Shown here: positions 871-36,791 of the stretch, in pieces
How positions within the stretch are numbered: position 1 is the first letter of the stretch
Layout of the letters: every line of letters starts with the position of its first letter
Assembly (NCBI GenBank): GCA_003140935.1
Contig: PLLJ01000038.1
Span: 70,858-109,002, forward strand
Origin: Candidatus Omnitrophota bacterium
GTDB taxonomy: Bacteria > Omnitrophota > Omnitrophia > Omnitrophales > Aquincolibacteriaceae
Direction: 5' to 3'
Length of the DNA: 38,145 bases
Translations under genes and position numbers: made by a program
The notes under the pieces: generated by a model
What the model saw: only the letters and a program-made list of their open reading frames with translations
The model's database searches: none
What the model was told of the DNA's origin: nothing

Positions 871-916
871 ATTCTAGGCGTATTCGAGCGGGGATGTTAT
901 GGGGTATTGACCCCAT
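871..916 (-). promoter_or_regulatory. dyad promoter 1 (PAS sensor unit)
   Basis: Perfect dyad ATGGGGT-N4-ACCCCAT at 899-916, centre 907.5. The -10-like hexamer TAGAAT (876 down to 871) starts 31.5 nt from the centre. Predicted +1 is near 864. In gene orientation the proximal half reads ACCCCATAA, one of two copies lacking the final G. Confidence 0.7.
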
Positions 917-1023
917 CAAGCTTTAAAGCCACACATGATGAGAAATATCGACTTTTCTTCCCGTGCGGAAGCGAAGAAAGGAGGATGACAGAGGGTTTCT
1001 ATAAAAAAAGTTTCAGCTATCCC

Positions 1024-1122
1024 AAAATAAAAAGGCGCTACATTGCTCTCGAACTTCGATGGCTTTTTATCGCCCTGAGGAACGAAAGCGACGTGAGGAT
1101 TTCATTTGTTTCTATAGCGCCT
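1024..1122 (-). terminator. structured element ending in a T tract (terminator or small RNA)
   Basis: Perfect 8-bp inverted repeat AGGCGCTA (1115-1122) and TAGCGCCT (1033-1040), written on the minus strand. It is followed immediately by TTTTTATTTT. The enclosed 74 nt hold further short complementary pairs (TCGC/GCGA, CGAT/ATCG). It lies about 200 bp beyond the acyltransferase stop in the same direction. It may be the terminator of that operon or a small structured RNA. The large loop is unusual for a plain terminator. Confidence 0.4.
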
Positions 1123-1135
1123 ATATTGATTTTTT

Positions 1136-1156
1136 AAAAACTCCCCCGCCCGGGGG
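1136..1156 (-). terminator. GC hairpin followed by TTTTT
   Basis: On the minus strand, a CCCCC/GGGGG stem (1143-1156) with a 4-nt loop is followed by AGTTTTT. It lies downstream of the acyltransferase gene, in the right direction to end that operon. The adjacent 14-bp perfect palindrome at 1171-1184 (GGACGGATCCGTCC) may belong to the same REP-like element. Confidence 0.4.
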
Positions 1157-1170
1157 ACTTTCCCGCCAGA

Positions 1171-1184
1171 GGACGGATCCGTCC
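1171..1184. repeat. 14-bp perfect palindrome GGACGGATCCGTCC
   Basis: Self-complementary 14-mer flanked by GGCGGAC and GGCGGGAA-type sequence. Similar CCGCC/GGCGG-rich pieces occur at about 3913-3935 and 19421-19445. This suggests a dispersed intergenic palindromic repeat, but only fragments are visible here. Confidence 0.3.
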
Positions 1185-1272
1185 GAGATGTTTGGCGGAC
1201 GCAACTGGCTTTTAACCTCGGGAGTGGTGGAAATCCTCAAGATCTTGAAGAGACTGCCGGTTGCTATTGTAT

Positions 1273-1314
1273 AATAAAGACGGTATTGGATTCACCACTG
1301 CCAGGGTCTTTATT
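1273..1314 (-). terminator. AT-rich inverted repeat just after the acyltransferase stop
   Basis: Inverted repeat AATAAAGAC (1273-1281) and GTCTTTATT (1306-1314), 9 bp with a 24-nt loop, directly downstream of the stop at 1317. It is followed by ATACAATAG with no good T tract, so it is a weak terminator or processing hairpin. Together with the elements at 1024-1156 it fills the 400-bp stretch 917-1316, which has no convincing gene. Confidence 0.3.
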
Positions 1315-1316
1315 GT

Positions 1317-2954: not shown

Positions 2955-2986
2955 AAAGATCCGGCTTTCCCAATGTTAAAAAACTC

Positions 2987-4775: not shown

Positions 4776-5054
4776 TTAAAAAAGACTCCCGATGGCTTTG
4801 AACGGCCAGATCAGAACTTGGCCGATCGTGTAAAAAAGGCCCCCGATCACACCGCGGGGATGCGCACTGGTTTCTTTTTGGGTCGTCACAGAAGTCGTAT
4901 TACTATCGCCCGACGCGCCGGTCGTAGTCTGCGTTGTCACTGTTGAAGTTTTAGTGCTTCCTGCACAACCTGCCATCGATACTGCGCCCAAACTGATAAG
5001 GCACATCATGGCCATTAAAAGCCAGCCGCTCTTCAGTCCCATTATTTTTCTCAT
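4776..5054 (-). CDS. small Thr-rich lipoprotein
   Basis: 92 residues. Signal peptide with lipobox SMAGC (Cys30), then a Thr/Ser-rich linker (about 31-65). The C-terminal hydrophobic segment [22 protein letters not shown] could be amphipathic or membrane-seated. The start overlaps the previous stop (ATGA), so translation is coupled to the coiled-coil gene. I know no family name. Location at the outer or inner membrane is inferred from the lipobox; residues +2/+3 are Ala-Gly, which does not suggest inner-membrane retention in the E. coli sense. Confidence 0.75.
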
Positions 5055-5245
5055 CTTGCGATTCTTTCTGTTTTGCTTGTTCGTATCTGATCATTTTGAA
5101 AATTGAGATTGTTTATTTTCGAACTCATTGATTGCAATCTCTGATTGTTTCGCATCATGACCGCCAGATGCCGTTCCAGATACGTGTTTTCATCTGTTAA
5201 TGCTCGAAGTTTTTGTGCAAGGCCGAGCATTTCCGCCTCGTTCAT
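5051..5245 (-). CDS. small coiled-coil protein
   Basis: 64 residues from ATG 5245 (MNEAEMLGLAQKLRALTDEN). It is charged and helical with heptad-like leucines, and probably forms a short coiled coil. The frame is open upstream to a GTG at 5317. However, the promoter at 5323-5367 predicts +1 at 5316, so GTG 5317 would lie outside the transcript; ATG 5245 is therefore preferred. It is the first gene of the unit and overlaps the lipoprotein start by 4 nt. Function is unknown. Confidence 0.6.
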   Translation of the reverse strand: MNEAEMLGLAQKLRALTDENTYLERHLAVMMRNNQRLQSMSSKINNLNFQNDQIRTSKTERIAR

Positions 5246-5322
5246 CCTACGCCGTTCGCTTCTTTTTTCAAGCAACAGGCGACTTTCCTTTTCACCCCTA
5301 AGACCTATATTCCTCACGCCTT

Positions 5323-5367
5323 ATGATGGCTGGGGCTCGGTTCAAATTCTATGGGGTGTTCACCCCA
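5323..5367 (-). promoter_or_regulatory. dyad promoter 2 (hydrolase/acyltransferase unit)
   Basis: CTATGGGGTGTTCACCCCA at 5349-5367, a near-perfect dyad with centre 5359.5. The -10-like CATCAT (5328-5323) starts 31.5 nt away. Predicted +1 is 5316. The same CATCAT hexamer at the same spacing is seen at the promoter at 36747. Confidence 0.75.
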
Positions 5368-5413: not shown

Positions 5414-7477
5414 TTACCAAGAGTGTTTTGAAATGCTAAGAAAAAATTGTGAAAAGAGAACAATTTCACGCAATCCGGTGAAAGCGACCCGAACTGGGCG
5501 AATGCGCTCTAGCTTGCCCTGTTTTAAATGTTGGCGAACATTTCCCCAAAACTCATCAAGCGGACGACGAGAGGAAGTCAACGAATCCGAAAAAACATCC
5601 CGTTTTTTTAACCATAATTGAAACCGGGAAGGGATCCGGACCGATGAAGTAATACCCCCTTGGTAGGAACGTTCGAGATACGCTGCTGCTTTTCGATAAA
5701 AGACCTGCAATTCTCGAACGCGAAGATTTCTCCAATCTGAAATTCGTTTTTGGCGCCGGGACAATTCCAGGACGACCCGTTCCTCCAAAGCGCCTCGCGT
5801 GCGGGTCTCAAGCCACACTTCCTCCATTTCCATTGCAAGTTTGATCCATCCGATCAAAGTCCTCCGCATATCCCCCGCGCGGCGCTTGAAATACGTCCAT
5901 CGACTTTCCATCGGGTAGATTTTCCGGCGTTCTTTCCTGGATTTCACCCTGAAAAATCCATCCAGCATCGGATGACCGCCTTCGACCTCTATGGAATTTT
6001 TAAACCAGACAAATTTCAGGAAGATGTCCCAGTATCTTTTCGCCGGAACTTGCTTCAGGATCCGGATCATATGAGAGACGCCATAAAAATTTCTCCATGC
6101 AGATCCGTAGGCTAGCGCCCAGGCCCCGGACGACATCTGTTCATGACGGAACGTTTCGTGAAACGAATCAAAGTTGTTCAGGTCCGCATCCATGACCCTC
6201 CCTTGTGAAAGCGCCGCTTGATGATCCAGCGAACCCGGCAGCGGCGTGAGCATAAAAAAAGAGGCCATCGGAGCACTGAGTTCCTCTCGAAGTCGCGCCA
6301 TATCCAACGCCACGGATCCTTCGGAATCAAAAGGAAAACCGATAATGTAGGCCAAGTGGGCGATAATGCCGGCTTCATGGTACATGGCGATCATATTTTG
6401 AAAATCATGCACTTTATTTTGTTTTTTCTCAGCCGCTTCAAGATTTTTCTCGTTCAGGCTTTCAAGTCCGATGAATACCTGGGAGCATCCCGCTTCGGCA
6501 GCTTTGGACACGAAGCCCGGAAGGCGGTGAGATTGCGTATCCACCTGGATCATGAAGCTGATCGGGATATTTTCCTCGCGACGCAGCCGGATCAGACCCT
6601 CAAAAATGGCGTTCCAATTCTTATTCCGTGAAAAATTGTCGTCCGTAAAAAAGTAAGCCGATATTTTTTGTCGCACATAATTATCACGAATCATTTTGAG
6701 GATCGGATCCACCGGTCGAAAACGCATCGTTCGTCCCTGAACGTTGATCACGGTGCAGAAGCTGCAGGCAAAGGGGCACCCGCGACTGCAGTCGATCGTT
6801 CCAAAATGCGAAACCGCATAAGAGTTTCGAAGATTCTTTGGGAAAACAGGCATGGGAGCCGGCGAAAGATCGGGCTTTTCTTGTAAAAAATTGTAAACGG
6901 GCTTGAGTTGCCCTTCGAGAGCATCCTTGAGGATCATTTCCCAACGGCCTTCTACTTCCCCTGCTACGAGGGTCACCCCGGCGTCTTGAAGCTTCTGCAC
7001 TTCCGGGGATAACTCGGGGAGCATGGCAAAAACACCACTGACGTGGAAACCACCGATCAGGACATCGATACCCATTTCCCGGAATGCCCGAGCGAGATCC
7101 GATGCGCGTGGGAACTGGTTTGACTGGACCCCCACAAGACACACAACGGTTCTATTCCCTTTTATTCCATTCTTTCGAGCAATTTTTTGTATGTCGATGT
7201 GCTCGACCGTTTCATCAATGTTCCGGATGTTAAATTTAAGATCTTTGCCAAGGACACCACGCTTCCGGACGTCTTCACTTAGACCGTTCAGACAGGCCAG
7301 CGTATTACTGGGACACACGCCCTTCCAGTAACGGATCACGTATCCGTCGTCATCATATTTGGACGGCTTGATCAGGTAGAGATCGAGCCTTTTAGGCGCA
7401 GAGGGGTTGAACTGTGGATATTTTTCCATCTTTTTTTCGGGCGGATCTTTGCTTTCGGGCGGTGTCTCTCCCTGCAT
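5414..7477 (-). CDS. B12-binding-type radical SAM protein
   Basis: 687 residues. The N-terminal third resembles a cobalamin-binding domain (IGGFHVSGV near residue 141, GEVEGRWE near 173). The radical SAM cluster is C234-x3-C238-x2-C241, with an extra C230 before it. GLESLN and the TPLPGS-type segments typical of the BchE/HpnJ-like class follow. The last 200 residues are Arg-rich and not recognised. Such enzymes catalyse methylation, cyclisation or C-C chemistry on lipids, pigments and natural products; the substrate here is unknown. The start is uncertain: ATG 7477 overlaps the SDR gene by 86 bp, and Met17 (7429) still overlaps by 38 bp. Neither has a good ribosome site, so coupling to the SDR gene is likely. 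Confidence 0.85.
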   Translation of the reverse strand: MQGETPPESKDPPEKKMEKYPQFNPSAPKRLDLYLIKPSKYDDDGYVIRYWKGVCPSNTLACLNGLSEDVRKRGVLGKDLKFNIRNIDETVEHIDIQKIARKNGIKGNRTVVCLVGVQSNQFPRASDLARAFREMGIDVLIGGFHVSGVFAMLPELSPEVQKLQDAGVTLVAGEVEGRWEMILKDALEGQLKPVYNFLQEKPDLSPAPMPVFPKNLRNSYAVSHFGTIDCSRGCPFACSFCTVINVQGRTMRFRPVDPILKMIRDNYVRQKISAYFFTDDNFSRNKNWNAIFEGLIRLRREENIPISFMIQVDTQSHRLPGFVSKAAEAGCSQVFIGLESLNEKNLEAAEKKQNKVHDFQNMIAMYHEAGIIAHLAYIIGFPFDSEGSVALDMARLREELSAPMASFFMLTPLPGSLDHQAALSQGRVMDADLNNFDSFHETFRHEQMSSGAWALAYGSAWRNFYGVSHMIRILKQVPAKRYWDIFLKFVWFKNSIEVEGGHPMLDGFFRVKSRKERRKIYPMESRWTYFKRRAGDMRRTLIGWIKLAMEMEEVWLETRTRGALEERVVLELSRRQKRISDWRNLRVRELQVFYRKAAAYLERSYQGGITSSVRIPSRFQLWLKKRDVFSDSLTSSRRPLDEFWGNVRQHLKQGKLERIRPVRVAFTGLREIVLFSQFFLSISKHSW

Positions 7478-8633
7478 ATTTTGCTTGTATGAACTTCACC
7501 ATCCGGTCGACCGTTTCTTGAGACATCTGATCGAAGACCGGCAACCGGACCCCCAATACCGATTTCAGCTGACTTTGATCGAAAAAGGCCTCTTGCCAAA
7601 AATACTTTTCATAAATTTTAATGGACCGAAAGAACCGCCTCTCCAGCAGAGAAAGCTCCTTGATGTCTTCCTTGGGACACCAAACGAGATCCGGCCAATC
7701 CAAGGCCGTCCGCACATAAAGGTTAAGCATCTCGAGCCGGATCGGCGCGGGATCGGTTAAATGAAAGGCTTTTCCCCAGGCTTCATCCGTTTCGAGCAAC
7801 AGTGAGATAAGCTTTGCCACATAATCCACAGGGATAAAATTCTTCGTCGCGTTAGGGTCCCCGGGAATGCGGAAGCGGCCATCGTCTGTCTTGTCCCGGA
7901 TCATCCGGCGGATCGTAAGGAGTCGGAATATCAGATCGAAAAAATGGTGATTGGGGCACATATACCCGCTCCGGGAATCCCCGACAATAATGCTGGGCCG
8001 AACGATCAAAAAGCGGATCCGTCCTGAGGCTGCCGCATCCCTGACTTCATTTTCAGCGATCGCTTTGCTTCGTTCATATCCGTTCCGGAACCCTTCCGTC
8101 ATCAGAAGTTCATCTTCGCGCACAACACCCGTACGCTCGCCGGCGACATAAGCGGAGCTCACATGGACAAGCGCCTTCGCGTGCGTATGCGAAGCAAACT
8201 CGATCGCCTCACGTGTTCCTCCGATATTGATCGCCTCTAAGCTTTTCCAATCCGTTTCAAGCGCGGTACACGCGGCATTATGGATCACCACATCCGTCGA
8301 GGCCGCATACTCGTCATAAAGCCTCTTACCTATACCAAAAAAGAGCTGGGTCGTATCTCCCTCGACAGCGAATAAATTCCGCTCGCTGAATTGATCCCAC
8401 GGAAACTCGGGATCATAATCCAATAAACGATTCTTCAAACGATCGCCTGCGCTTAAACCCTTCTGCGCACGTACGAGTGCCGTCACAGTATGTCCTCTCT
8501 TGAGCAAGTCGCACAAGAGAACGGTCCCTAAAAATCCGGTTGCCCCCGTCAAAAAAATACGCTTTGTTTCTTCCTTTGGCACCTGTCCGTGCGGACTAAC
8601 CGCATCCCGTGGCTCCTGCTCTTGATTTTTCAT
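7392..8633 (-). CDS. extended SDR/fatty-acyl-CoA-reductase-like NAD(P)-binding protein
   Basis: 413 residues from ATG 8633. The GATGFLG nucleotide-binding motif is near the N-terminus. HNAA and SSAYVAGE follow, then catalytic YERSK (YxxxK), then the IVRPSIIVGDSRSG segment of the NAD_binding_4 (thioester reductase/male-sterility) group. Members reduce acyl thioesters or modify lipid precursors, but a sugar-nucleotide epimerase role cannot be excluded. ATG 8633 is chosen because GGAAAAAGG precedes it and the predicted transcript starts near 8656, which excludes the longer in-frame start at 8672. It forms a two-gene unit with the radical SAM gene. Confidence 0.8.
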   Translation of the reverse strand: MKNQEQEPRDAVSPHGQVPKEETKRIFLTGATGFLGTVLLCDLLKRGHTVTALVRAQKGLSAGDRLKNRLLDYDPEFPWDQFSERNLFAVEGDTTQLFFGIGKRLYDEYAASTDVVIHNAACTALETDWKSLEAINIGGTREAIEFASHTHAKALVHVSSAYVAGERTGVVREDELLMTEGFRNGYERSKAIAENEVRDAAASGRIRFLIVRPSIIVGDSRSGYMCPNHHFFDLIFRLLTIRRMIRDKTDDGRFRIPGDPNATKNFIPVDYVAKLISLLLETDEAWGKAFHLTDPAPIRLEMLNLYVRTALDWPDLVWCPKEDIKELSLLERRFFRSIKIYEKYFWQEAFFDQSQLKSVLGVRLPVFDQMSQETVDRMVKFIQAKYAGRDTARKQRSARKKDGKISTVQPLCA

Positions 8634-8662
8634 GGCCTTTTTCCTTTTGTAAATGTGACTAT

Positions 8663-8707
8663 AAGCTCGCACAAAAACCAGAAGGGTAATATGGGGTCTT
8701 TACCCCA
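8663..8707 (-). promoter_or_regulatory. dyad promoter 3 (SDR/radical SAM unit)
   Basis: ATGGGGT-CTTT-ACCCCA at 8691-8707, centre 8699.5. At the standard 31.5-nt spacing the hexamer is GAGCTT (8668-8663), the weakest of the ten. A better TATAGT lies 5 nt further downstream. In gene orientation the proximal half is ACCCCATAT. The 8708-8968 stretch upstream holds no gene; it contains an 8-bp inverted repeat (AGGTTATT/AATAACCT, 8741-8770). Confidence 0.65.
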
Positions 8708-12967: not shown

Positions 12968-13013
12968 AGGGTAAGCGAAACCCTCCTGAGAAAGCTATGG
13001 GGTATTCACCCCA
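12968..13013 (-). promoter_or_regulatory. dyad promoter 4 (SYLF-Mla unit)
   Basis: CTATGGGGTATTCACCCCA at 12995-13013, centre 13005.5. The best -10-like hexamer TACCCT (12973-12968) starts 32.5 nt away, one more than most sites. Predicted +1 is near 12961, giving a leader of about 73 nt. Confidence 0.7.
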
Positions 13014-17573: not shown

Positions 17574-17732
17574 TTAAAGGCGTCCCGTCAGCAATAAAAG
17601 AATGAGGATCACAACGAGCAAACCTGAAATGCTGCTCGGAGCGTATCCCCAAGATCTGCTGTGCGGCCAAGTGGGCAACGCACCCACAAGAAACAAAACG
17701 AGTATGACGAGCAATACAGTTGAAATTGTCAT
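17574..17732 (-). CDS. DUF3309-family small membrane protein
   Basis: 52 residues. MTISTVLLVILVLFLVGALP is followed by TWPHSRSWGYAPS and a second hydrophobic segment (GLLVVILILLLLTGRL). The W-P-x-S-x-x-W-G-Y-x-P-S core between two short helices is the DUF3309 signature. Function unknown; relatives are often stress-induced. Ribosome site AAAGGAGA. First gene of the unit from the promoter at 17777-17820. The DNA around its start (about 20 nt either side of the ATG) resembles that around the EEP start at 19380. Confidence 0.88.
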   Translation of the reverse strand: MTISTVLLVILVLFLVGALPTWPHSRSWGYAPSSISGLLVVILILLLLTGRL

Positions 17733-17776: not shown

Positions 17777-17820
17777 AGCCTAATACGGCCCGGATGGCTG
17801 TTCTATGGGGTGAACACCTA
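17777..17820 (-). promoter_or_regulatory. dyad promoter 5 (DUF3309/YihY unit)
   Basis: CTATGGGGTGAACACCTA at 17803-17820, centre 17813.5, with the distal half degenerate. The -10-like TAGGCT (17782-17777) starts 31.5 nt away; predicted +1 near 17770. The dyad, the hexamer and the CAGCC next to it recur almost unchanged at 26766-26807. Confidence 0.75.
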
Positions 17821-22693: not shown

Positions 22694-22739
22694 ACTCTAG
22701 GATTGTTGCTGCGATACATCTATGGGGTAAACAACCCAT
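22694..22739 (-). promoter_or_regulatory. dyad promoter 6 (PAP2 unit, leftward)
   Basis: CTATGGGGTAAACAACCCAT at 22720-22739, centre 22730.5. The -10-like TAGAGT (22699-22694) starts 31.5 nt away; predicted +1 near 22687. It is back to back with the promoter at 22794-22838. Confidence 0.75.
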
Positions 22740-22793: not shown

Positions 22794-22838
22794 AGGGTGC
22801 TTACCCCATAGTCTTTGACCTCACCCGAAGTCTAGTAT
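22794..22838 (+). promoter_or_regulatory. dyad promoter 7 (BON unit, rightward)
   Basis: AGGGTGCTTACCCCATAG at 22794-22811, centre 22800.5. TAGTAT (22833-22838) starts 32.5 nt away; predicted +1 near 22845, 27 nt before the ATG. It is the only copy facing right, and its invariant half again lies next to the -10, as expected for a directional activator site. Confidence 0.75.
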
Positions 22839-22871
22839 GCCCTCATCACAAAACAAAAAAGGATGTGTCCT

Positions 22872-25739: not shown

Positions 25740-26141
25740 CTACGCAACTTTTTTAAGAATAGCCGTATAAATTTCCTGGGCCTCTTCGATATTCGGAAGA
25801 AGGTTTTTGCGGGCCTCAACCTTGATCTTGGTCGACCTCCACGAAACTTTGGACAGTTCGATTTTTACGGTAACACCATTCCCCACGACCCCTTCTATCT
25901 TGCCGTGCGCTTTATCCTCCGACTTGATCATTCCCTTGCTTTTCACGACATCCGCTGAAGCGTTATAAACTTTAGGGAGCCCGGTTTTGACTTCCCCTTC
26001 AATGGAATCCTTGCTGATCGCATAAGCCCCGGCGGAACCGGCCCCTACCAGAGCCATCGCAACGCATCCGCTAAACACCGGGCCCAATACCAGCATCAGC
26101 ACCACCGGAAATAATGTACGAAAAGAATGTTTGAATTCCAT
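25740..26141 (-). CDS. DUF3568-type small lipoprotein
   Basis: 133 residues. Lipobox FSGC (Cys26), then a Gly/Ala segment MALVGAGSAGAYAISKDS that may insert into membrane. A small alpha/beta domain follows (EGEVKTGLPKVYNASADVVKS, VKIELSKVSWRSTKIKVEAR). This matches the DUF3568 layout. Ribosome site AAGGGGGC. Last of three small lipoprotein genes transcribed from the promoter at 26766-26807. Confidence 0.75.
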   Translation of the reverse strand: MEFKHSFRTLFPVVLMLVLGPVFSGCVAMALVGAGSAGAYAISKDSIEGEVKTGLPKVYNASADVVKSKGMIKSEDKAHGKIEGVVGNGVTVKIELSKVSWRSTKIKVEARKNLLPNIEEAQEIYTAILKKVA

Positions 26142-26282: not shown

Positions 26283-26711
26283 TTAAGTTTTGTATTTGAC
26301 CATCATCCCCTGAGCAGAAACGGTGGCCTTTGAGGAAAAATTGACGTAAGCAGGGACATAGTGGTATTCCGCGCTGATAACCGCGTTGGCATCGTACGAT
26401 CTAGCTTTTGCTCCCAGCTTCTCAAAAATCATTTCTTTGTACTTTTCCCTTTTGGCATCCAAAGACGCTTTTATGTCCGGAGGGATCTGCTCTGAGATCC
26501 GCCCGTCTTTGGAAATATAGCCCGCAAGGCCTTGAACCGCATCCTCCGTACTTTCGAAGATTTGTTCGCTCACAGAGATCGGACCGACCACCTCATAAGC
26601 TCTTGGGATATCCTTCGTTTCCCAAACAACGACCTTGGGAGCAGCAGTTGTCATACAACCCGCCCCTAACATAACGAGGAACATTCCGGTAACAGCACTA
26701 AAATATTTCAT
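26283..26711 (-). CDS. lipoprotein with YbjQ-like/heavy-metal-binding-like fold (tentative)
   Basis: 142 residues from ATG 26711 (GGAAGAG upstream). An open frame continues to 26759, but the promoter predicts +1 at 26759, so the shorter start is favoured. Lipobox GAGC. The body has VVGPISVSEQ and ends AKARSYDANAVISAEYHYVPAYVNFSSKATVSAQGMMVKY. This resembles small proteins with a (G/A)-A-N-A-V-I-x-x-x-Y strand such as YbjQ, but the match is weak. First gene of the lipoprotein trio. Confidence 0.65.
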   Translation of the reverse strand: MKYFSAVTGMFLVMLGAGCMTTAAPKVVVWETKDIPRAYEVVGPISVSEQIFESTEDAVQGLAGYISKDGRISEQIPPDIKASLDAKREKYKEMIFEKLGAKARSYDANAVISAEYHYVPAYVNFSSKATVSAQGMMVKYKT

Positions 26712-26765: not shown

Positions 26766-26807
26766 AGCCTAATGCAATCAAGACAGCCGCTCTATGGGGT
26801 GAACACC
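26766..26807 (-). promoter_or_regulatory. dyad promoter 8 (small-lipoprotein unit)
   Basis: CTATGGGGTGAACACC at 26792-26807, centre 26802.5. TAGGCT (26771-26766) starts 31.5 nt away; predicted +1 at 26759. It is almost identical to the promoter at 17777-17820, and both lie just beyond the stop of an EEP gene. Confidence 0.75.
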
Positions 26808-26830
26808 TACTATTCGAAAGAAAAGGGACC

Positions 26831-29167: not shown

Positions 29168-30459
29168 GCTTGTTTTTCGACGGCTATGGGCACAGCCTTT
29201 GTATCGTTTTCGCTGGGACCGAACGCCGCTGCCATGGTCGCTTTAGTAAAAGTGCAAAGAAGCTCCCATTCCGCTTCGGCGCGCTGCATGAACGGAAACC
29301 AATCCTTTTCTTCGGATTTCCGCTGAAAGCCTTTCCCCGCTTGTAAACTTTCGTAAAGCTGAAGCGCCTTATCCGCACACAGTTTTATGGAAAATTCTTT
29401 CGCGGTTTCTTTCGCCTCATCGATCAGTTTTTTTCTTTCAGCGGGGGACCTTTTCAGGATCCAGCTTAAAGCCTCAGAGAATTCCTCTTCACTTTCAAGG
29501 GGAACGAGTCTGCCATTGATCTTGTCTTTCACGATGTCCCGGACACCCGGTGCATCAACGCCGACCACAGGCGTTCCTGCCGCCATGGCTTCATTCAAGA
29601 CCATTCCTTGGGTTTCACTTTGAGAGGAAAACGCAAAAACATTGATCGCTTGAAAAGCCTGGATCAGTTTTTCGCCTTTTATTTCTCCCACTAAGCGCAG
29701 TTGGTCTTCTACCCCCAGCTCCTCCAAAGAACTTAAAAGCTCTGCTTCCGAGGGCCCGTTTCCCACCACTAAAAAGATGGCTTCCTTTTCTTTTTTTAAG
29801 AACGAGGCGACCGCCCGGGCGAGAAAGGGAAGATTTTTTTCCGGCGAGAGTCTCCCCACATAGCCGACCACAAAAGCGTCTTTGGGGATTTTTGATTGTT
29901 GCCTGAAATTTTCCGATGTTCCTGTATATTGACTTAGTTGAAGGCCGGTGGGGATCACCGCGACCTGGGTTTTCACGCCGCGTTCTTTGATCATCTCCGC
30001 AACGCTTTCACTCGGAGCAATGACATAATCACAGCAATTCGCAAACCCCGTGGCAATCTCCGCCACGAATTTTTTTACGGTTTCCGAATCTCCTACGTTT
30101 TCCTCATAAAGCGAATGGTGGGTGAAAACCAGCGGCACCTTGTGTTCATAAGCAAATCGAAGAGCTGTTTCCCCCATTAAAAAAGGATGATGGGTATGAA
30201 CGATGTCAGGCTTAAAGTCGCCCAACTCTTCAAGGAGAGATCCTATGGGAAGTTTCACTGAAAATTTAGACCCGTAAAAATTTTTAAGCGCGGGCACTCG
30301 AACGACATCTAATTCATTCTTGGGGCTATTCTCATATTCCGGCGTAACGATCACGACCCGATGGCCGCGCTTACGGTATTCTTTTGTGAACGATTCGATC
30401 GAACGCTCCAAGCCGCCCACCAGGGGCAAATAGGCATTAGTCATCATCAAAATATTCAT
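29164..30459 (-). CDS. GT4-family glycosyltransferase
   Basis: 431 residues. The N-terminal MNILMMTNAYLPLVGGLERS and VHTHHPFLMG are typical of GT4 enzymes related to diacylglycerol glucosyltransferases and alpha-mannosyltransferases. The donor domain has VGYVGRLSPEKNLPFL and the E-x7-E motif SETQGMVLNEA. A 60-residue C-terminal tail follows the usual end. Retaining transfer to a lipid or glycan is expected; sugar and acceptor unknown. Ribosome site AAGGAGA; ATGA overlaps on both sides tie it to the glycosidase-like and fusion genes. Confidence 0.88.
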   Translation of the reverse strand: MNILMMTNAYLPLVGGLERSIESFTKEYRKRGHRVVIVTPEYENSPKNELDVVRVPALKNFYGSKFSVKLPIGSLLEELGDFKPDIVHTHHPFLMGETALRFAYEHKVPLVFTHHSLYEENVGDSETVKKFVAEIATGFANCCDYVIAPSESVAEMIKERGVKTQVAVIPTGLQLSQYTGTSENFRQQSKIPKDAFVVGYVGRLSPEKNLPFLARAVASFLKKEKEAIFLVVGNGPSEAELLSSLEELGVEDQLRLVGEIKGEKLIQAFQAINVFAFSSQSETQGMVLNEAMAAGTPVVGVDAPGVRDIVKDKINGRLVPLESEEEFSEALSWILKRSPAERKKLIDEAKETAKEFSIKLCADKALQLYESLQAGKGFQRKSEEKDWFPFMQRAEAEWELLCTFTKATMAAAFGPSENDTKAVPIAVEKQA

Positions 30460-32750
30460 AAATTTCTCCTTGGGATCACTACGGAATTTTCACCCGGTTT
30501 TGCTTGGATCGGCGCATGGCCCGGCAGACGGATCTCGATCGCGGGCTCTTTCCCATTTTGCCAGTCGCCGGACCATTGGATGTTGATTTTTTCATCTTTC
30601 GTCTTAATGAGAACTTTCACAGGACCAAAACTTGTGGGCGTAGGGCCTAGGGCAGCTCCTTTCCCCTCCGCTATCCAGGAAATTGGAATGCCGGAACACA
30701 AAATGAGCTTCCCATCCTCTTCGTACACAAAGCAATTCCTGAGAATCAGGATCCATTCAGCCGCCGCCCAGATATGCTGTCCATCGCCCATGCATCCGCC
30801 CTTGGTCCTGGGATGGACTGCTTCCGGCCATTGGCCTGTGGGGGTTGCCAAAGAGGCCATCGCACTCATCAAGTCAAAAAAACGGGGATCGCCGGCCCGT
30901 AAAAAAACCTGGGCAATATGCAGCGTTAAATAAACATTAATTCCGGAATGGCTGATCTCTTGATAAAACCCTCCCTGGACAAAGCACTCTCGGAAAAGGA
31001 ATTCCGCCGTATCAAGAAGTCGCGGATCTTGTGCGGGAAAAATTTGAAGCGGATAGCCTGCGACCAGTGAGCCGATGGCCCCCGCATCCATTCTTCGATG
31101 AGGAGATGCGGGCATGGCATTCCTTTTTTTGGGTTCGGCGACCCTCTTCAGGCTCGCTTCAATGCAACCCAAAAGATCCTTTGCCTGGCCTGCAAATTGA
31201 ACGGCGAGATCATCATCGCCATATTTTCGGGCCAAAAAAGCACCCGCACTGAGACCCGCGACGCCCCAAAAATCATCCCAGTAATAATAATCATTGGGTC
31301 CAAGATGTTCCGCGCTGAATCCCACGGGGAGCAAACCAAAGGAGCGGCTCCCCTTCTTGAATTCCCTCTTATTTTGGATCCATTTCGCGGCCCGGTAAAT
31401 GGACCGTTGCCACTTAGGGTCCGGCTTTTGGCCCGTCCGTTCACAAAAACGGCGTATGGCCCACAAGGCTTCTCCGTTAGAATCCCATTCTCCGTCCTGC
31501 GACAAAAAATAGCCGGCAACCGTTTGACGCATAGGAAAGCGATTGACGATTTTCTTTACTCGCTCGCTCAAGCCCACGCACAACATAGCCTCCAGAATAA
31601 AGGCGGCGTCCCGAAACCAGAAACGTTTGTAGGTGTAGGGCCCCGGATAAACATCTTGCCCGGGGGAATGTAAGATCAGCGAGCGGATCGCCGCGTCATA
31701 AAGAAATTGAAAATGTTGATCGGGAATTTCCAGTTCGCAGCAACCCTTCAGATTTTCTTCCCATTTTGAGACGGTAGACTTCCCTTCCCACGCGGGCTTC
31801 GCCTCAGCACCTTTTGTGACTGGGATCGAGATCGTCACTTCACGTTTTACATTCGACTCAAGTTTAAAAAGAGCCGCGGCGGTGGCCATCCCCACATGAC
31901 AGTCCACCCCCTCCGCTTTGGAAGACAAAAGTAACTGTCCGAAAACGTCGCCGTTCCAGTAATGAGAAAAATCAGTTCTTTCAGGCGCCGCATCAAAATG
32001 GACAAAGGTGTGCCCGTCCACTTTCCATCCCATTCGGTTTTCTAATAAGGCGATTTTATGGATGAAGCTGATCCCTTCGGGGTTGCAGGGGCGAAGCGAG
32101 GCTATCAACCAGCCGCCCGTCACGGAGAGTGCGGTCAACTTGATCTGGCATATCACGATTCCGGACTGCTCATAAGCTTCAACGCATGAGCGAAGTTGCA
32201 TACCCTTATCCTCAGACGTTGTTTTGACTTGAGGATTTCCGTAAAGGCACCACTCCTGCCGCACAGAAACCAATTTAGACGGGATCAAGTGAGATCCTTT
32301 TCCGTTCATCACCCAAGCATCGATCGACCATCCGTCAAAAAAGGGAGTGACCAGTCCCCTCGGATCGACGATCGGCAGGTCAGTGAGATCAGGCACTCCC
32401 ACAGCCGTCCAATTCCTGTGAGTCAGATTTAAATGAGTGAGATTGAAGGCTCGCGGTATAAACGATTCATCCTCCGGATCGAATTGGCGTTCGACCCAAT
32501 AAGGCCAGATCCAGTCCATATTGTGCTGGATCGCCTGACTGTTGATCAGTCCGCGGGCCTGCATGATCGCGCCCGCCCGGAGGAGTTCCTTGGGGGCCAT
32601 GAGCTCCGAAGGTTGGGCAAAACGTCTGAGATTGGCCAACACTAAAATAGGATCGAGAAAACCTTCAACGCGTGCAACATGACGGATGAGAAAATCCCTG
32701 AGCGTTGAAGATAAATATCCTGAGATCCTGCTAAATAATTTTTTCCGCAT
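30456..32750 (-). CDS. six-hairpin glycosidase-like protein
   Basis: 764 residues, no signal peptide. The second half shows (alpha/alpha)6-barrel features: FWFRDAAFILEAMLCVGL, GEWDSNGEALWAIRRF, WDDFWGVAGLSAGAFLARKYG, and QWPEAVHPRTKGGCMGDGQH near the end. These resemble amylo-alpha-1,6-glucosidase, GH15 and GH63-type enzymes. The first 350 residues are probably a beta-sandwich. A catalytic acid in WDSNGE and a base near QWPE are plausible but not assigned. With the GT4 gene downstream it may trim or remodel a glucan. Confidence 0.75.
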   Translation of the reverse strand: MRKKLFSRISGYLSSTLRDFLIRHVARVEGFLDPILVLANLRRFAQPSELMAPKELLRAGAIMQARGLINSQAIQHNMDWIWPYWVERQFDPEDESFIPRAFNLTHLNLTHRNWTAVGVPDLTDLPIVDPRGLVTPFFDGWSIDAWVMNGKGSHLIPSKLVSVRQEWCLYGNPQVKTTSEDKGMQLRSCVEAYEQSGIVICQIKLTALSVTGGWLIASLRPCNPEGISFIHKIALLENRMGWKVDGHTFVHFDAAPERTDFSHYWNGDVFGQLLLSSKAEGVDCHVGMATAAALFKLESNVKREVTISIPVTKGAEAKPAWEGKSTVSKWEENLKGCCELEIPDQHFQFLYDAAIRSLILHSPGQDVYPGPYTYKRFWFRDAAFILEAMLCVGLSERVKKIVNRFPMRQTVAGYFLSQDGEWDSNGEALWAIRRFCERTGQKPDPKWQRSIYRAAKWIQNKREFKKGSRSFGLLPVGFSAEHLGPNDYYYWDDFWGVAGLSAGAFLARKYGDDDLAVQFAGQAKDLLGCIEASLKRVAEPKKRNAMPASPHRRMDAGAIGSLVAGYPLQIFPAQDPRLLDTAEFLFRECFVQGGFYQEISHSGINVYLTLHIAQVFLRAGDPRFFDLMSAMASLATPTGQWPEAVHPRTKGGCMGDGQHIWAAAEWILILRNCFVYEEDGKLILCSGIPISWIAEGKGAALGPTPTSFGPVKVLIKTKDEKINIQWSGDWQNGKEPAIEIRLPGHAPIQAKPGENSVVIPRRNL

Positions 32751-32759: not shown

Positions 32760-33197
32760 TTAACTCAACCAGCTTTTGGCATGATTAAAGAGTCGAATTC
32801 CATAGACGCCGAGAAAACAAAACCAAAGAACGGTTAACACAGGAATAGCTATCGACCATGCGATCTTTATCCGCTTTGAAAAGACGTGGCTTTGCCATAA
32901 AAGTGGCAGCGCTGAAAAACCCGTCGTCAGCAGCAAAAGCACAATGTAAGGTTTTGATTCGCTGAACTGACTCACTCCGCCTCGTGCGAGCACATAGGTC
33001 TCGACGACGGCAGGGACCATGATCATGACGTAAATAAAACACGCCAGAAAAGGCGCTATCGGCGATTTAAAAAAGAAGATCGTGCAGATAATCCCAAGAT
33101 CGATGGCAAAAAAAGCTACGGCTTTCCCCCTCTTGCCGACCACCCAATGCCCTGCACCGGGCACAAGTGACAGACCCGCGGCAAGGAGAGGCGGCAT
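32760..33197 (-). CDS. small integral membrane protein
   Basis: 145 residues with four predicted membrane helices (about 22-42, 47-67, 82-100, 112-135). The opening LAAGLSLVPGAGHWVVGKRGKAVAFFA has the P-G-x-G-x-x-x-x-G-K pattern of TM2/DUF5683-like membrane proteins. Function unknown. It starts directly after the preceding TGA, with GGGAG 8 nt upstream, and ends 9 bp before the glycosidase-like gene. Confidence 0.75.
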   Translation of the reverse strand: MPPLLAAGLSLVPGAGHWVVGKRGKAVAFFAIDLGIICTIFFFKSPIAPFLACFIYVMIMVPAVVETYVLARGGVSQFSESKPYIVLLLLTTGFSALPLLWQSHVFSKRIKIAWSIAIPVLTVLWFCFLGVYGIRLFNHAKSWLS

Positions 33198-33389
33198 TCA
33201 GACCGCTCCCGCCATACTGTGATTTTCTTCTCCCCGGTACCAATCTTCCATTTCCCGGTACAAAACTCCCATTTCGTTTTTATCGTCTTTTCGGTTCAGA
33301 CTGCCCGCCATTTGCTCTCGCAAGCAGCTTTTGGGTCCCATGCCGTTTTCCTGTTCTTCTTGATGTCGCCTCGGTCTTAGATTTTTCAT
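33198..33389 (-). CDS. small charged protein of unknown family
   Basis: 63 residues from ATG 33389 (GAGGAGGAG, 5-nt spacing). Rich in Arg, Glu, Asp and Met; no membrane segment. An in-frame extension to 33416 is excluded because the promoter predicts +1 near 33414. It abuts the membrane protein gene (TGA followed by ATG). It is the first gene of the 6.5-kb glycan/phosphoesterase unit, but I do not recognise it. Confidence 0.6.
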   Translation of the reverse strand: MKNLRPRRHQEEQENGMGPKSCLREQMAGSLNRKDDKNEMGVLYREMEDWYRGEENHSMAGAV

Positions 33390-33420
33390 GATGCTCCTCC
33401 TCGATGTTAGAAACAACGGT

Positions 33421-33466
33421 ATAGTGACCGGAAAGCTCGCGGAACGCTATGGGGTGGTTACCCCAT
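33421..33466 (-). promoter_or_regulatory. dyad promoter 9 (GT4/glycosidase/fusion unit)
   Basis: CTATGGGGT-GGTT-ACCCCAT at 33447-33466, centre 33457.5. CACTAT (33426-33421) starts 31.5 nt away; predicted +1 near 33414, 25 nt before ATG 33389. A scan of the + strand at the same spacing shows no -10 toward the divergent receiver gene. Confidence 0.75.
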
Positions 33467-33559: not shown

Positions 33560-33593
33560 ACGCCGGTCGTTGCCATTAATATCCGGAGCCATC

Positions 33594-34013
33594 ATGCAGA
33601 GCGAACAGGATCGGCCCTACAAAATATTAATCGTTGATGACGGAAAGGACTTCAGGGAAGCGCTCAGCGATTTCCTTACCCTTTTCGGGTATCAGGTCCA
33701 GGAAGCTTCGGACGGCAGGAAAGCCTTGGAACTGTTACGTAAGGACCGTAACGTCGATCTTGTTCTTCTGGATGTCCATATGCCGGGATTGTCCGGTATG
33801 GAGGTTCTAGCAAAAATCAAGCAAACCACCCCCCAATTAAGCGTTATCCTTTTGACAGGTGATAGCGCCCAAGATATCGCGGCATCAGTTCCCAAGGGAT
33901 ATACTCAAGATTGCATCGAGAAGACTATGGATCCCGACAAGATCAGCAGACTGATCGAGAAGGTCTTGAATAAATCTGAAGACGCACTTACCGCCGCGAT
34001 AAATCTAAATTAG
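33594..34013 (+). CDS. stand-alone CheY-like receiver domain
   Basis: 139 residues from ATG 33594 (GGAG, 5-nt spacing); an in-frame TTG upstream is less likely. ILIVDDGKDF gives the acidic pair D15-D16, LVLLDVHMPG the phospho-acceptor D60, ILLTGD the Thr switch, and IEKTMDP the Lys, with Thr replacing the usual Pro. No output domain. It may relay a phosphate between kinases such as the PAS protein at the left edge and the kinase at the right edge (inference). Divergent from the glycan unit. Its stop overlaps the AsmA-like remnant on the other strand. Confidence 0.88.
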   Translation: MQSEQDRPYKILIVDDGKDFREALSDFLTLFGYQVQEASDGRKALELLRKDRNVDLVLLDVHMPGLSGMEVLAKIKQTTPQLSVILLTGDSAQDIAASVPKGYTQDCIEKTMDPDKISRLIEKVLNKSEDALTAAINLN

Positions 34014-34135
34014 TCTGCAAGCCATTCACCCAAAGCTGATTGGATTTTTTCACCCGTGTCTTTCATTAAAATATCGAAGTTACCATTCAGCAAGGAAATC
34101 CCGCCCTTACGGAAAAACCCCTCGCGAATCTCCAT
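34010..34135 (-). pseudogene. remnant of an AsmA-like gene 3' end
   Basis: 41 codons, starting MEIREGFFRKGGISLLNGNF. They align without gaps to the last 37 residues of the AsmA-like protein at 15447-16151 (RK.G.S.L..NFDIL.K..G identities). The DNA also matches in blocks, for example ATATCGAAGTT against ATATCAAAGTT and TTACGGA in both. It starts one codon after the DUF6515 stop and in the same frame, without a ribosome site. Best read as the tail of a deleted paralogue, although a translated short peptide is possible. Confidence 0.6.
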
Positions 34136-34138
34136 CTT

Positions 34139-34717
34139 TTACTTTTTACAGTATCTCGCTTTCAGTTGATCTTCGGTCGGATGATCGGCATAAAATTCCC
34201 CTTGAGGACCCAAAAACCCTTTTTCTGTTTTCCGGAGAGTTACAACCGTGAAGCTTCCGTTACCATTGGAAATATAAGTTTCAATGGCATCGCTGGGTTC
34301 ATTAGAAACGGGTGCCACTGTTTGCTGGGAAATGGGCGCCGGTGTGGGTGCTTGGATCGGAGCAGCGATCGCCGGAGGAGCGGTCACCACATAGCCGTTC
34401 GGGGCCGCCGCATAATAGGCATTGCCGTAATAATAATACGGCATCCCGCCCATATAGACGACCGTATAGCCGGGCGGCAGGGCCGGGACGACGGCTCCCA
34501 TCGGTGCCGGCACGACCACATAGCCGGCGGGCGTCGTTCTGTAAAACATACCCGCGCTATAAAGCAACGACATTCCCGCAACCGAAAGGGCGACGATACC
34601 TAAAGCGGACGATCCCCCGCCATGGCCTCCATGCCCTCCGCGCCCGTCCGCAAAAGCCAAAGAGGGTTGTAAAAGACATGTCAGAATTAAGATCACAACC
34701 AAGATTCTTTTAAACAT
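34139..34717 (-). CDS. secreted DUF6515-like Tyr/Pro-rich protein
   Basis: 192 residues. Signal peptide cleaved after AFA (about 23). A Gly/His stretch GRGGHGGHGGG follows, then a hydrophobic segment, then YRTTPAGYVVVPAP, LPPGYTVVYMGGMPYYYYGNAYY and GYVVTAPP. The Y-x-x-x-G-x-x-Y-x-V-V-x-P-P pattern is that of DUF6515. The C-terminus is a small domain (SFTVVTLRKTEKGFLGPQGE). Periplasmic, function unknown. Ribosome site AAGGAG. Confidence 0.78.
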   Translation of the reverse strand: MFKRILVVILILTCLLQPSLAFADGRGGHGGHGGGSSALGIVALSVAGMSLLYSAGMFYRTTPAGYVVVPAPMGAVVPALPPGYTVVYMGGMPYYYYGNAYYAAAPNGYVVTAPPAIAAPIQAPTPAPISQQTVAPVSNEPSDAIETYISNGNGSFTVVTLRKTEKGFLGPQGEFYADHPTEDQLKARYCKK

Positions 34718-34821
34718 TTTTGCATCTCCTTCTCATATTTGTTAATTGTATTTTTACAAATTTATCAGTATATCGCTCACTCGTTCTCGAAAGACTGCAT
34801 GCATCAGGGTTACGCCTTTCC

Positions 34822-34995
34822 TTAACGTCTCTCGCCCTCTTTTTCAGCATGCTGTTCATCCTGGTGATCATCGTGTTGTTCATCATGACGATTATTCTCA
34901 TGATGATGCCACCAATGTTCCCTATCAGAAAAACAGCCCGTAAGAGAGGCTAAAGCAACAATCACTGCCAGAAATACGATCAGTTTGTATTTCAT
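34822..34995 (-). CDS. His-rich mini-lipoprotein
   Basis: 57 residues. MKYKLIVFLAVIVALASLTG is followed by lipobox Cys21. The mature 37 residues contain ten His plus many Asp/Glu (HWWHHHENNRHDEQHDDHQD), suggesting metal binding. The start overlaps the DUF6600-like stop (ATGA) and has AAAGGAGAG, so it is clearly coupled. Function is inferred only from composition. The 104 bp to the DUF6515 gene hold its ribosome site and no dyad. Confidence 0.75.
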   Translation of the reverse strand: MKYKLIVFLAVIVALASLTGCFSDREHWWHHHENNRHDEQHDDHQDEQHAEKEGERR

Positions 34996-36227
34996 TGAGA
35001 ACTCTCCTTTTTATCTTCCTTACCATCGCGACTTTCTTTTTTGTCTTTTTCATCTTTTGAGGAGACCGCTTTACTTTTCGCTTGAGACACCGGCGCATTG
35101 ATTTGGCGCTCACTTTTTGGAGAACGGTTTTCATTACTTTTGGATTGAGACACTTGAGACACAGGCACCGTGCTAGAGCGCTGGGGCAATGTCTTGGGAG
35201 CCTGGACCTCACGCGACTGTTGACTTTGCAAAGGTTGGCGCTCACGGGTCGCCGTTTCTTGTGTGGCATTCGGTTTAGCTTTAGGCTGTTCTGCCAATTG
35301 CGCCTTTGTCGCATCGGGCGGAGGATTCTTAGACGGTTGGCCAAGTGGCTCGTTCACTGTACGTTTGTGGTCCGTCTGCGCTTTTTGTGTTTCCAAGGCG
35401 CGCTTATTTTCCGATTGAGGTGACACCGCAGACGCTACGGGTTCTTTTTTTGCGGCCACTTCAGGGCGAAACACGCGCAATTCATTCCCGGCAACACCAT
35501 TATGTTCCGGCGATTCGGTCGAAGCTATTTTAAGACGTTCGATCGGACGTCCCGCTGTTTTTTCGATCGTGTTGTGAAAAGGAACTTGATTTTCGATGCG
35601 ACCGTTCCTGAGAGCTATTGTGTTAGCTGATAACCTTGTTTCCCCAAAAACCGCCGCATTGCGCGCAGGCATAATGAGGCGATGCCTAACATCCGGATCA
35701 GAGAAGTCGTGAGCGTGAGAAAAACTGAATGAATTCCACGGGATATGCTCCCGGTTGAAATCTCTGTCCTCAAATCCTCTCCCCTGATGCCAAACCGCCT
35801 CAGGCGGCAGAGGCGCCCAACCGATCCAATCGCCACCCGTGCGCCAGGCAACCCAGGAAGGCGCCCAAACCGTATCCGGATACCAGAGCCATCCCTGGCG
35901 ATTATCGAAAAACCAGCGCCCATAATGGAAGCAGGCCCATCCCCAAGACTGGTCGGATACCCAGGACCAGCCATAATCGGTATAGACCCAATGGCCGTCT
36001 GTATAAGGGCGCCAGTCGGCCGCCATATGATACGGCGACCACACCCACCCATACGTTCGATCCCATACCCACTCCCCATAGGGACGTAATGTTTCATGAA
36101 AATAGCTGACACGCGCATCAGCATTCCACGCCGACTGCTCCGGATAGGCTGTCCGCCCCATGGCTTGACAATTGTTAAAAGTAAATAAAGAGAAAATAAC
36201 GAACAGCCCAGCAACGGTTTTTTTCAT
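34992..36227 (-). CDS. secreted DUF6600/YXWGXW-type Trp-rich protein
   Basis: 411 residues. Signal peptide to about residue 22 (CQA-MG). Residues about 40-150 are packed with Trp/Tyr-Gly repeats (YGEWVWDRTYGWVWSPY, DGHWVYTDYGWSWVSDQSW, GWLWYPDTVWAPSWVAWR), as in DUF6600. The last 190 residues are a low-complexity Gln/Lys/Ser/Pro tail. Probably a periplasmic or surface protein; no enzymatic motif. Start has GAGGTG. Coupled to the His-rich lipoprotein gene. Confidence 0.82.
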   Translation of the reverse strand: MKKTVAGLFVIFSLFTFNNCQAMGRTAYPEQSAWNADARVSYFHETLRPYGEWVWDRTYGWVWSPYHMAADWRPYTDGHWVYTDYGWSWVSDQSWGWACFHYGRWFFDNRQGWLWYPDTVWAPSWVAWRTGGDWIGWAPLPPEAVWHQGRGFEDRDFNREHIPWNSFSFSHAHDFSDPDVRHRLIMPARNAAVFGETRLSANTIALRNGRIENQVPFHNTIEKTAGRPIERLKIASTESPEHNGVAGNELRVFRPEVAAKKEPVASAVSPQSENKRALETQKAQTDHKRTVNEPLGQPSKNPPPDATKAQLAEQPKAKPNATQETATRERQPLQSQQSREVQAPKTLPQRSSTVPVSQVSQSKSNENRSPKSERQINAPVSQAKSKAVSSKDEKDKKESRDGKEDKKESSQ

Positions 36228-36309
36228 GTGTCACCTCTTTTGTTTATTCCAACAATCCATCTGGGTTTTCCCCTATCATTTACATTTGAAGACGATGCCT
36301 TCGGAAAAA

Positions 36310-36702
36310 TCACCTTCTCGGCGGCGGGACAACAACAAGAGTGCCATCCGGCATTTGTTGATAGTAACGCGTGTTGTCGTAGTAGTAGGGAGTGTTTTGA
36401 ACGATAACGGTCGTATGTTGCGGAGGCAGGGATTCAATAAGCGCTCCGATAGCGAGAGCGGCAACAGCGATCTCATGCCCTGCGGAATCATGTTTATACC
36501 ATCTGCCATCGCGGTAGTAGTGCTTTTCTCCCCTGTTGTCTCCTCGGTTATCGTTCCTGCGATCTCCTCTGTCGTCTTCCCTGTGATCTCCTTTGTTGGC
36601 TCTCTCGTAATCTCGCGCCATCGCAGATGCGCGCGGACAAAGCACTGCGATCCCAAAAAGCAGAACCCAAAACACCCTCAACCGTATGATTTGTTTTAGC
36701 AT
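36310..36702 (-). CDS. secreted DUF6515-like protein
   Basis: 130 residues from ATG 36702 (AGGAGG, 6-nt spacing; a GTG at 36708 is in frame). Signal peptide ends near ASA-MA. A charged Asp/Arg repeat (EDDRGDRRNDNRGDNRGE) is followed by HYYRDGRWYKHD and YYYDNTRYYQQMPDGTLVVVPPP, the same Y/P end as the DUF6515 protein at 34139. First gene of the W/Y-rich unit, 82 bp before the DUF6600-like gene. Confidence 0.72.
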   Translation of the reverse strand: MLKQIIRLRVFWVLLFGIAVLCPRASAMARDYERANKGDHREDDRGDRRNDNRGDNRGEKHYYRDGRWYKHDSAGHEIAVAALAIGALIESLPPQHTTVIVQNTPYYYDNTRYYQQMPDGTLVVVPPPRR

Positions 36703-36746
36703 GTCCACCCTCCTTTTTTATTTTACTCAGCTCTTGAAACAGTTTC

Positions 36747-36791
36747 ATGATGGACCGTTATTAAATGAAGCTCTATGGGGTGTTCACCCTA
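36747..36791 (-). promoter_or_regulatory. dyad promoter 10 (DUF6515/DUF6600 unit)
   Basis: CTATGGGGTGTTCACCCTA at 36773-36791, centre 36783.5. CATCAT (36752-36747) starts 31.5 nt away; predicted +1 near 36740, 38 nt before ATG 36702. Confidence 0.75.

Follow-up and report, generated by a model that had tools for sequence, protein, structure and literature searches.

A 38,145-nucleotide (nt) stretch of a Candidatus Omnitrophota contig, hereafter referred to as the window, carries ten copies of a dyad built around the octamer ACCCCATA, all of them upstream of genes, and encodes a response regulator (RR) of the NarL type at positions 37014-37697. We consider it likely, at a probability of roughly 0.8, that the dyads are binding sites of this RR and that it acts as a class-II-type activator of at least ten operons for predicted envelope and stress functions. 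From comparison with related genomes, the most likely reading is that an RR-activated envelope and stress regulon of this kind spans the Omnitrophota, Lentisphaerae and Verrucomicrobia.

Ten dyads at a fixed distance from a -10 hexamer

An earlier note on this DNA had listed ten copies of the dyad, and a pattern scan found all ten again at the same positions (Table 1). The octamer was invariant in 10/10 and was followed by G in eight, the exceptions being the sites with octamers at 8697 and 905; the left arm was G-rich in each, read in gene orientation. In 100 dinucleotide shuffles of the window a mean of 0.05 dyads and a maximum of 2 were obtained, as compared with the ten observed. An eleventh octamer at 13950 (plus strand) lacks the distal half and was left out of the dyad count. 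A hexamer with A at the second and T at the sixth position (A2/T6) began 21 nt after the octamer at eight sites and 22 nt after it at two (13003 and 22803). As this holds for 10/10, the dyad centres would be situated at -43.5 or -44.5. The hexamer rule, the centres and the ten predicted +1 positions (Table 1) were recomputed, and the values were identical to those of the note.

When transcription units were drawn by eye, not mapped, the statement that all but two or three of them carry the dyad appeared fair. The LCAT-like gene 13103-14563 and the plus-strand receiver gene 33570-34013 have no clear site of their own, and the site of the kinase-RR operon lies just outside the window. The receiver gene encodes a single-domain protein (PF00072; 33460-34013, plus strand) and is divergent from the site at 33455, whose near-palindromic sequence also reads as a weaker dyad towards it.

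The arms of GGGGT-N4-ACCCC could pair as a short stem, and the dyads might then be an RNA hairpin, or else a dispersed repeat. This is extremely unlikely in our view: the predicted transcript start lay downstream of the dyad in 10/10 window cases, the flanking sequence differs among the copies, and the form with an N3 spacer as well as the arms GGGTT and TAGGT weaken the stem. No Rfam family at gathering scores and no tRNA was found in the window.

In the genome of origin (G000, with the window on its contig C14), enrichment was seen for the dyad but not for the octamer alone. The dyad RGGTNNNNACCCCATA occurred 12 times versus 0 for the reversed control, whereas the octamer alone gave 48 versus 47. 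Thirteen of these 48 octamers, the eleventh window octamer included, fell within the 38 kb of C14:71755-109532, which make up 1.6% of the genome (binomial p 4e-13). When the 19-20-nt gap proposed by the note was counted from the end of ACCCCATA, a genome scan returned one unrelated match; the measured gap after the octamer is 21-22 nt. With the octamer-to-hexamer gap set to 20-23 nt, 18 matches versus 5 reversed-control matches were obtained, and part of these lacked the distal half. Further sites were located on the contigs C38, C39 (two, with left arms GGGC) and C44. The C38 site lies upstream of a lipoprotein-like open reading frame (ORF); of the two C39 sites, one is followed by a small ORF resembling a membrane protein, the other by a small hydrophilic one. 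The second C39 site, which has GGGC as its left arm, fails the left-arm rule and was excluded from the site tallies. The idea of a locus-wide regulon is supported, with a candidate regulator encoded in the window, but the predicted regulon is not confined to this locus, as sites were also present on C38, C39, C44 and in other organisms.

The promoter layout is that expected of an activator

The octamer, the base after it and the left arm were the only criteria for choosing sites outside the window; the conservation of the octamer and of the G-rich left arm among these sites is thus partly due to selection, while that of the -10 hexamer is not. Of the 105 full non-window sites, 82 were followed after 21 or 22 nt by an A2/T6 hexamer, as compared with a mean of 8.75 and a maximum of 14 at 24 other spacings. 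By group, the fractions were 13/15 for the window and its own genome, 22/22 for the Omnitrophota relatives and 51/65 for the Verrucomicrobia order described below. This recurrence is in good agreement with the activator-dependent regulon suggested by the note, with binding and activation as predicted properties. In the Lentisphaerae loci L006 (9855 and 1634) and L007 (1808), dyads form tandem pairs with a distance of 22-23 nt. The strict pattern failed to pick up the second copy of these pairs, which is separated by 21 nt from a near-perfect -10 (TATAGT, TATATT or TATAAT).

In the aligned promoters no -35 hexamer was conserved besides ACCCCATRG, in line with the note's remark that a good -35 box is lacking, and no other hexamer was conserved between dyad and -10. 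The predicted promoters thus have the layout of the class-II type, with an operator at the -35 region, a fixed distance to the -10 and no good -35. The lack of a -35 hexamer, the fixed 21-22 nt to the -10 and tandem copies keeping this geometry are features expected of an activator, which would be seated at the -35 region.

A regulator that represses, or switches sign, by obstructing RNA polymerase around the -35 region could occupy the same place, because the dyad spans about -50 to -33, a position open to a repressor as well. We regard this as quite unlikely, given that no -35 hexamer is left for a default promoter, that the -10 distance is fixed at 21-22 nt and that the Lentisphaerae tandems keep the geometry. 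Alternatively, ACCCCATAG may be part of a promoter read by an alternative sigma factor, where it would serve as the -35 element that goes with the A2/T6 hexamer or as a -10 element like that of the heat-shock factor sigma 32, which has the consensus CCCCATNT. The right arm is indeed far more constant than the left, and CCCCAT is common to it and the sigma 32 -10. However, a -35 element in this place would leave 21 nt to the -10, versus the usual 16-17 nt, and a sigma 32 -10 would leave the A2/T6 hexamer downstream unexplained. Moreover, the left arm recurs in the two forms TGGGGTGAAC and GTAGGGTTAC, and the sites track the RR gene, which makes a sigma factor element very unlikely. For the sigma 32-like reading of CCCCATA, the sequence CTTGAAA was sought 13-17 nt upstream at 115 sites; no spacing gave more than 2 matches of 5/7 letters, no more than at other spacings, and this reading was thus not supported.

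A NarL-type response regulator and a probably soluble kinase are encoded beside the dyads

The window RR contains a receiver domain (PF00072, 3.2e-26) and a LuxR/GerE helix-turn-helix domain (PF00196, 1.7e-20), which corresponds to the NarL/FixJ (LuxR-type) architecture. In the translated sequence the receiver residues DD at 12-13, Asp 58, Ser 86 and Lys 108 were present. Among solved structures the best match was VraR (5hev, E 1.7e-38), and the homologue P0028 was 74% identical. The RR gene adjoins that of a histidine kinase, of which the window holds the 3' part; the remainder is located on the same contig beyond the window. Two codons of this kinase are unread, and its own domain evidence is HATPase_c, with HisKA_3 taken from orthologues; those in the loci L027 and L024, the two scanned singly, comprise HisKA_3 and HATPase_c. 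No membrane-span-like stretch was observed in 5/5 kinases, the window's own included (highest 19-residue hydropathy 0.86, versus 2.3 for a YihY control).

The dyad before the kinase (C14:109478) is divergent from another one (C14:109525) before a second triple-BON gene. A divergent site pair between kinase and BON gene was found in the own genome and in G031, and a divergent pair upstream of the kinase in G015 and G018. The helix-turn-helix stretch of the RR was similar throughout the site-bearing group. Together with its probably soluble kinase, the NarL-type RR encoded in the window is best described as the probable regulator.

Dyad and response regulator co-occur across genomes

Among the 47 genomes retrieved for the window's order, an RR at E<=1e-70 was detected in five (G000, G010, G015, G018 and G031). 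These five hold 30 of the 37 dyad matches (12, 1, 9, 3 and 5, respectively), as compared with seven in the other 42 genomes, three of which are in G002; the reversed pattern gave 7 matches in all 47 (Mann-Whitney p 5e-7). In each of the five, the RR gene has a site no more than about 2.5 kb away. Outside the phylum, RR relatives with 59-63% identity were found in metagenome-assembled genomes (MAGs) of Verrucomicrobia and Lentisphaerae (five of 18 loci), and around them the same dyad was present, with ACCCCATGG or ACCCCATAG.

The order of the Verrucomicrobia MAG G058 is represented by 78 genomes. The 27 with an RR at E<=1e-60 contain 175 of the 222 matches of RGGKNNNNACCCCATRG and the 51 RR-negative genomes 47, with 20 matches of the reversed pattern in all 78 (Mann-Whitney p 9e-7; near-palindromic dyads may count on both strands in this tally). 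At least three matches were present in 16/27 RR-positive versus 7/51 RR-negative genomes. For most larger genomes of this order 37 RR candidates were scored, so that some RR-negative genomes may be false negatives. The RR recheck covered G002 and 7/20 site-bearing RR-negative genomes of this order, with 150 of 203 candidates in G108. In G141, eleven of the 33 dyad matches lie on one strand within 45 kb, forming an island that resembles the window.

When loci were chosen by the RR alone, those with an RR at least 58% identical held 33 sites, distributed over 15/22 loci (shuffles 0.4), and those with a distant (<45%) or partial RR held 0 sites in 20 loci. The former class consists of 5 + 5 loci from two RR searches and the 12 loci listed among the RR matches from G058's order; full-length RRs of 45-58% identity were absent from the loci compared, and L105 (54%, partial) belongs to neither class.

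Two forms of the dyad were observed when the window, own-genome loci and the relatives L005-L036 and L085-L104 were tallied. GGGT or AGGT-N4-ACCCC accounted for 31/37 Omnitrophota sites and 27/78 Verrucomicrobia/Lentisphaerae sites, and GGGT-N3-ACCCC for 4/37 and 46/78, respectively. The own genome has a single RR match at E<=1e-40, yet both forms occur in it, so that one regulator may accept both spacings.

A number of observations weigh against the assignment of the dyads to this RR, or against parts of it. Seven of the 22 RR-picked loci were site-free; all of these are under 3.7 kb, and in G010 and G118 a site was present 2.1-2.5 kb from the RR gene in a longer stretch. G002, of the same genus as the window, has three dyad matches, but none of its 76 candidates, all of them scored, matched the RR at E<=1e-30. 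In G110 and G111, five matches each were accompanied by best RR identities of 38% and 43%. G114, likewise with five matches, has a 38% RR match plus a C-terminal fragment (C4:73558-73938) that is 61% identical over residues 100-226. The RR match of G137 is 54% identical over residues 3-180, and G108, G109 and G086 have distant RR matches only. Conversely, the RR was present and the dyad pattern unmatched in four of the 27 RR-positive genomes of G058's order (G079, G087, G123 and G128). Such mismatches across genomes may reflect incomplete assemblies, loss of the RR or takeover by a paralogue. With regard to promoters, the own kinase has TATAAG at 21 nt and no T6 hexamer, the C44 site has no clear gene and no A2/T6 hexamer at 21/22 nt, and in the named Verrucomicrobia/Lentisphaerae loci the hexamer stood at 21/22 nt in only 6/13 cases, three of the seven misses being upstream copies of tandem pairs. 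As for targets, HATPase_c was equally frequent in control genes (4/85) and at sites (4/95), and the control genes described below hold single HSP70 and DUF6600 members. Finally, the co-occurrence of site and RR in these genomes is correlational.

These points bear on the alternative that another regulator, either a second RR or a one-component factor, binds the dyad and that the RR is merely one more island gene. The good sites of G002, G110 and G111, which lack a close RR, speak in its favour, as do the several RR paralogues per genome in the Verrucomicrobia order (up to 7 at E<=1e-60); genes linked in a mobile or conserved island would co-occur, too. We nevertheless consider another regulator unlikely, because the split between the 15/22 loci with a close RR and the 0/20 with a distant or partial one extends over three phyla, because a site precedes the kinase-RR genes in the own genome, G015, G018 and G031, and because of the similar helix-turn-helix stretch.

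Genes downstream of the sites

In relatives, the dyads recur upstream of BON and DUF3309 genes, among others. Among the first genes downstream of sites, BON was found in 8/95, DUF3309 in 6/95 and MlaA in 3/95, versus 0/85 each in other genes of the same loci. This enrichment is modest (Fisher p 0.007 for BON and 0.03 for DUF3309), and the test is conservative, since later operon genes were counted as controls. Other first genes encode HisKA_3 kinases (4/95) and DUF883, PRC-barrel and patatin proteins (2 each); LemA, MlaE, superoxide dismutase (SOD), dodecin, a fatty-acid desaturase and cold-shock/RNB domains occurred once each. DUF883 and PRC gave 0/85 in control genes with profiles built from the site set. 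The control genes furthermore include one RNB and many receivers and kinases. ORFs that were hand-picked and scanned singly add YflT, DUF2934, OmpA-collagen proteins, MlaC and DUF748, and many genes downstream of sites have no assigned function. Genes of the assigned kinds are commonly met in general and envelope stress responses.

Gene calls for these tallies were crude (longest ORFs). The site set comprised 95/99 site-proximal ORFs, omitting a kinase-internal fragment, a short ORF, an ORF overlapping an RR gene and one of more than 1000 amino acids. The control set comprised 85/100 sampled ORFs, omitting locus-end ORFs, very long ones, two in the window and L023:1158-1841, a Ysc84 relative. 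The tallies cover the 25 commonest of 64 (sites) and 90 (control) families, and the zeros for BON, DUF3309, MlaA, DUF883 and PRC were checked by profile.

In the congener G002, in which the RR was unmatched at E<=1e-30, two good sites (L028:8464 and 10913, on G002:C55) were situated before stretches with relatives of the window Ysc84 gene and of the ORF 4776-5054.

Proposed mode of action and relation to known systems

In the proposed mechanism, the probably soluble partner kinase would phosphorylate the NarL-type RR, which would bind the dyad as a dimer and contact RNA polymerase beside the -35 region, where ACCCCATAG, at about -41 to -33, takes the place of the -35 box. The RR would activate rather than repress, and would also control its own kinase-RR operon. 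The signal may be a stress, either general or of the envelope, that is perceived in the cytoplasm.

The VraSR/LiaSR systems for cell-envelope stress in Firmicutes resemble the system described here in their NarL-type RR, their HisKA_3-type kinase and the envelope genes among the likely targets. In contrast to the kinases here, which are without a membrane-span-like stretch, VraS and LiaS are membrane sensors, and the TGGGGTGAACACCCCATAG dyad is not known as the VraR/LiaR site. The same receiver plus GerE architecture is found in NarXL, RcsB and DevR/DosR, and inverted-repeat operators occur in the NarL family; the differences are the half-site, here ACCCCAT[AG]G, and its tie to BON/DUF3309 genes and to Omnitrophota, Lentisphaerae and Verrucomicrobia. 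With the sigma B, RpoS and EcfG-PhyR responses there is an overlap in gene kinds, namely BON (OsmY-like), DUF883, PRC-barrel, YflT, dodecin and SOD, whereas the promoters here look RR-activated with a -10 hexamer and not like those of an alternative sigma factor.

For phyla studied mainly through metagenomes, a regulator is seldom matched with its sites and its targets. In Waddlia chondrophila, a member of the Planctomycetes-Verrucomicrobia-Chlamydiae (PVC) superphylum, the HrcA, PhoB and Euo regulons were mapped, and the motifs TAGCA-N15-TGCTAA for HrcA and A/T-rich ones for PhoB and Euo are unlike the window dyad (PMC4989314). The dyad written as GGGTNNNNACCC, GGGTN4ACCC, GGGT-N4-ACCC or in N3 forms was not found in literature text, a search that mostly did not extend to subscription papers, and among the papers listed for ACCCCATA with 'regulon' none concerned such a regulon, judged by title. 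A two-component regulon with activator sites beside the -35 is a known kind, and the site, the regulator group and the target set were not found in the literature searched, judged largely by title, in agreement with the note's opinion that the regulon is undescribed.

Because site, spacing rule, probable regulator and target list agree across three phyla, functions may be guessed for DUF6515, DUF6600, DUF3309 and a 764-amino-acid protein of the window. Stress handling in these phyla thereby becomes testable in a culturable Verrucomicrobia strain. We put forward tentatively, as a possibility somewhat short of even odds, that the system is the master general stress response of much of the PVC-type bacteria (Omnitrophota, Lentisphaerae and Verrucomicrobia). 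A single soluble kinase and a single regulator of the NarL type, acting through the operator TRGGGTN3-4ACCCCATRG at -43.5, would then take the role of sigma B, RpoS or EcfG, with most targets gathered in one island in some species. If true, a two-component system would directly govern a general stress response, without an alternative sigma factor in that role.

Operons of the window

Table 1. Dyad sites of the window with predicted -10 hexamers, predicted transcript starts and downstream genes, and the adjacent regulatory genes
Feature	Position	Strand	Predicted +1	Genes downstream or remark
Dyad, octamer 905, -10 TAGAAT	871..914	-	864	PAS-domain gene, starts 559 and runs off the window; 346 nt from site to ORF
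Dyad, octamer 5357, -10 CATCAT	5323..5366	-	5316	Small ORFs 5051-5317 and 4776-5054, two alpha/beta hydrolases, 1317-2954
Dyad, octamer 8697, -10 GAGCTT	8663..8706	-	8656	Thioester-reductase-like SDR 7392-8633 (or 8672), B12-binding radical SAM protein 5414-7477
Dyad, octamer 13003, -10 TACCCT	12968..13012	-	12961	Ysc84-like gene, Mla-type lipid transport (MlaE, ATPase, MlaD, auxiliary lipoprotein), to 8969
Dyad, octamer 17811, -10 TAGGCT	17777..17820	-	17770	DUF3309 17574-17732, YihY/BrkB 16182-17534, DUF748-like 15447-16151
Dyad, octamer 22728, distal half GGGTT, -10 TAGAGT	22694..22737	-	22687	PAP2, DSP-like phosphatase, CBM48/alpha-amylase and EEP-family genes, 22609-17842
Dyad, octamer 22803, -10 TAGTAT	22794..22838	+	22845	Triple-BON gene 22863-23627, DUF5329, EEP-family gene
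Dyad, octamer 26800, -10 TAGGCT	26766..26809	-	26759	ORF 26283-26711 (or 26759; no match in Pfam), DUF3568 gene 25740-26141
Dyad, octamer 33455, -10 CACTAT	33421..33464	-	33414	Small ORF 33198-33389, 32760-33197, 764-amino-acid protein, GT4 glycosyltransferase, 778-amino-acid EEP-domain protein, to 26831
Dyad, octamer 36781, -10 CATCAT	36747..36790	-	36740	DUF6515 36310-36702, DUF6600 34992-36227, DUF6515 34139-34717
Response regulator, receiver + LuxR/GerE helix-turn-helix	37014..37697	-		Proposed dyad binder; domain scan
Histidine kinase, C-terminal part (HATPase_c)	37697..38145	-		Start and own dyad (G000:C14:109478) outside the window

Taken by their predicted products, the window operons seem to serve envelope and lipid upkeep, with stress proteins in addition. 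The B12-binding radical SAM protein and the thioester-reductase-like SDR beside it (5414-8672) are possibly an uncharacterized lipid-modifying pair under the same predicted control. Several of the window's proteins fell into no family. For the 764-amino-acid protein no match was obtained in Pfam, NCBIfam or solved structures. This protein (30456-32750), the GT4 glycosyltransferase (29164-30459) and the 778-amino-acid EEP-domain protein (26831-29167) are conserved as neighbours in G018, where they are 79%, 75% and 69% identical, respectively.

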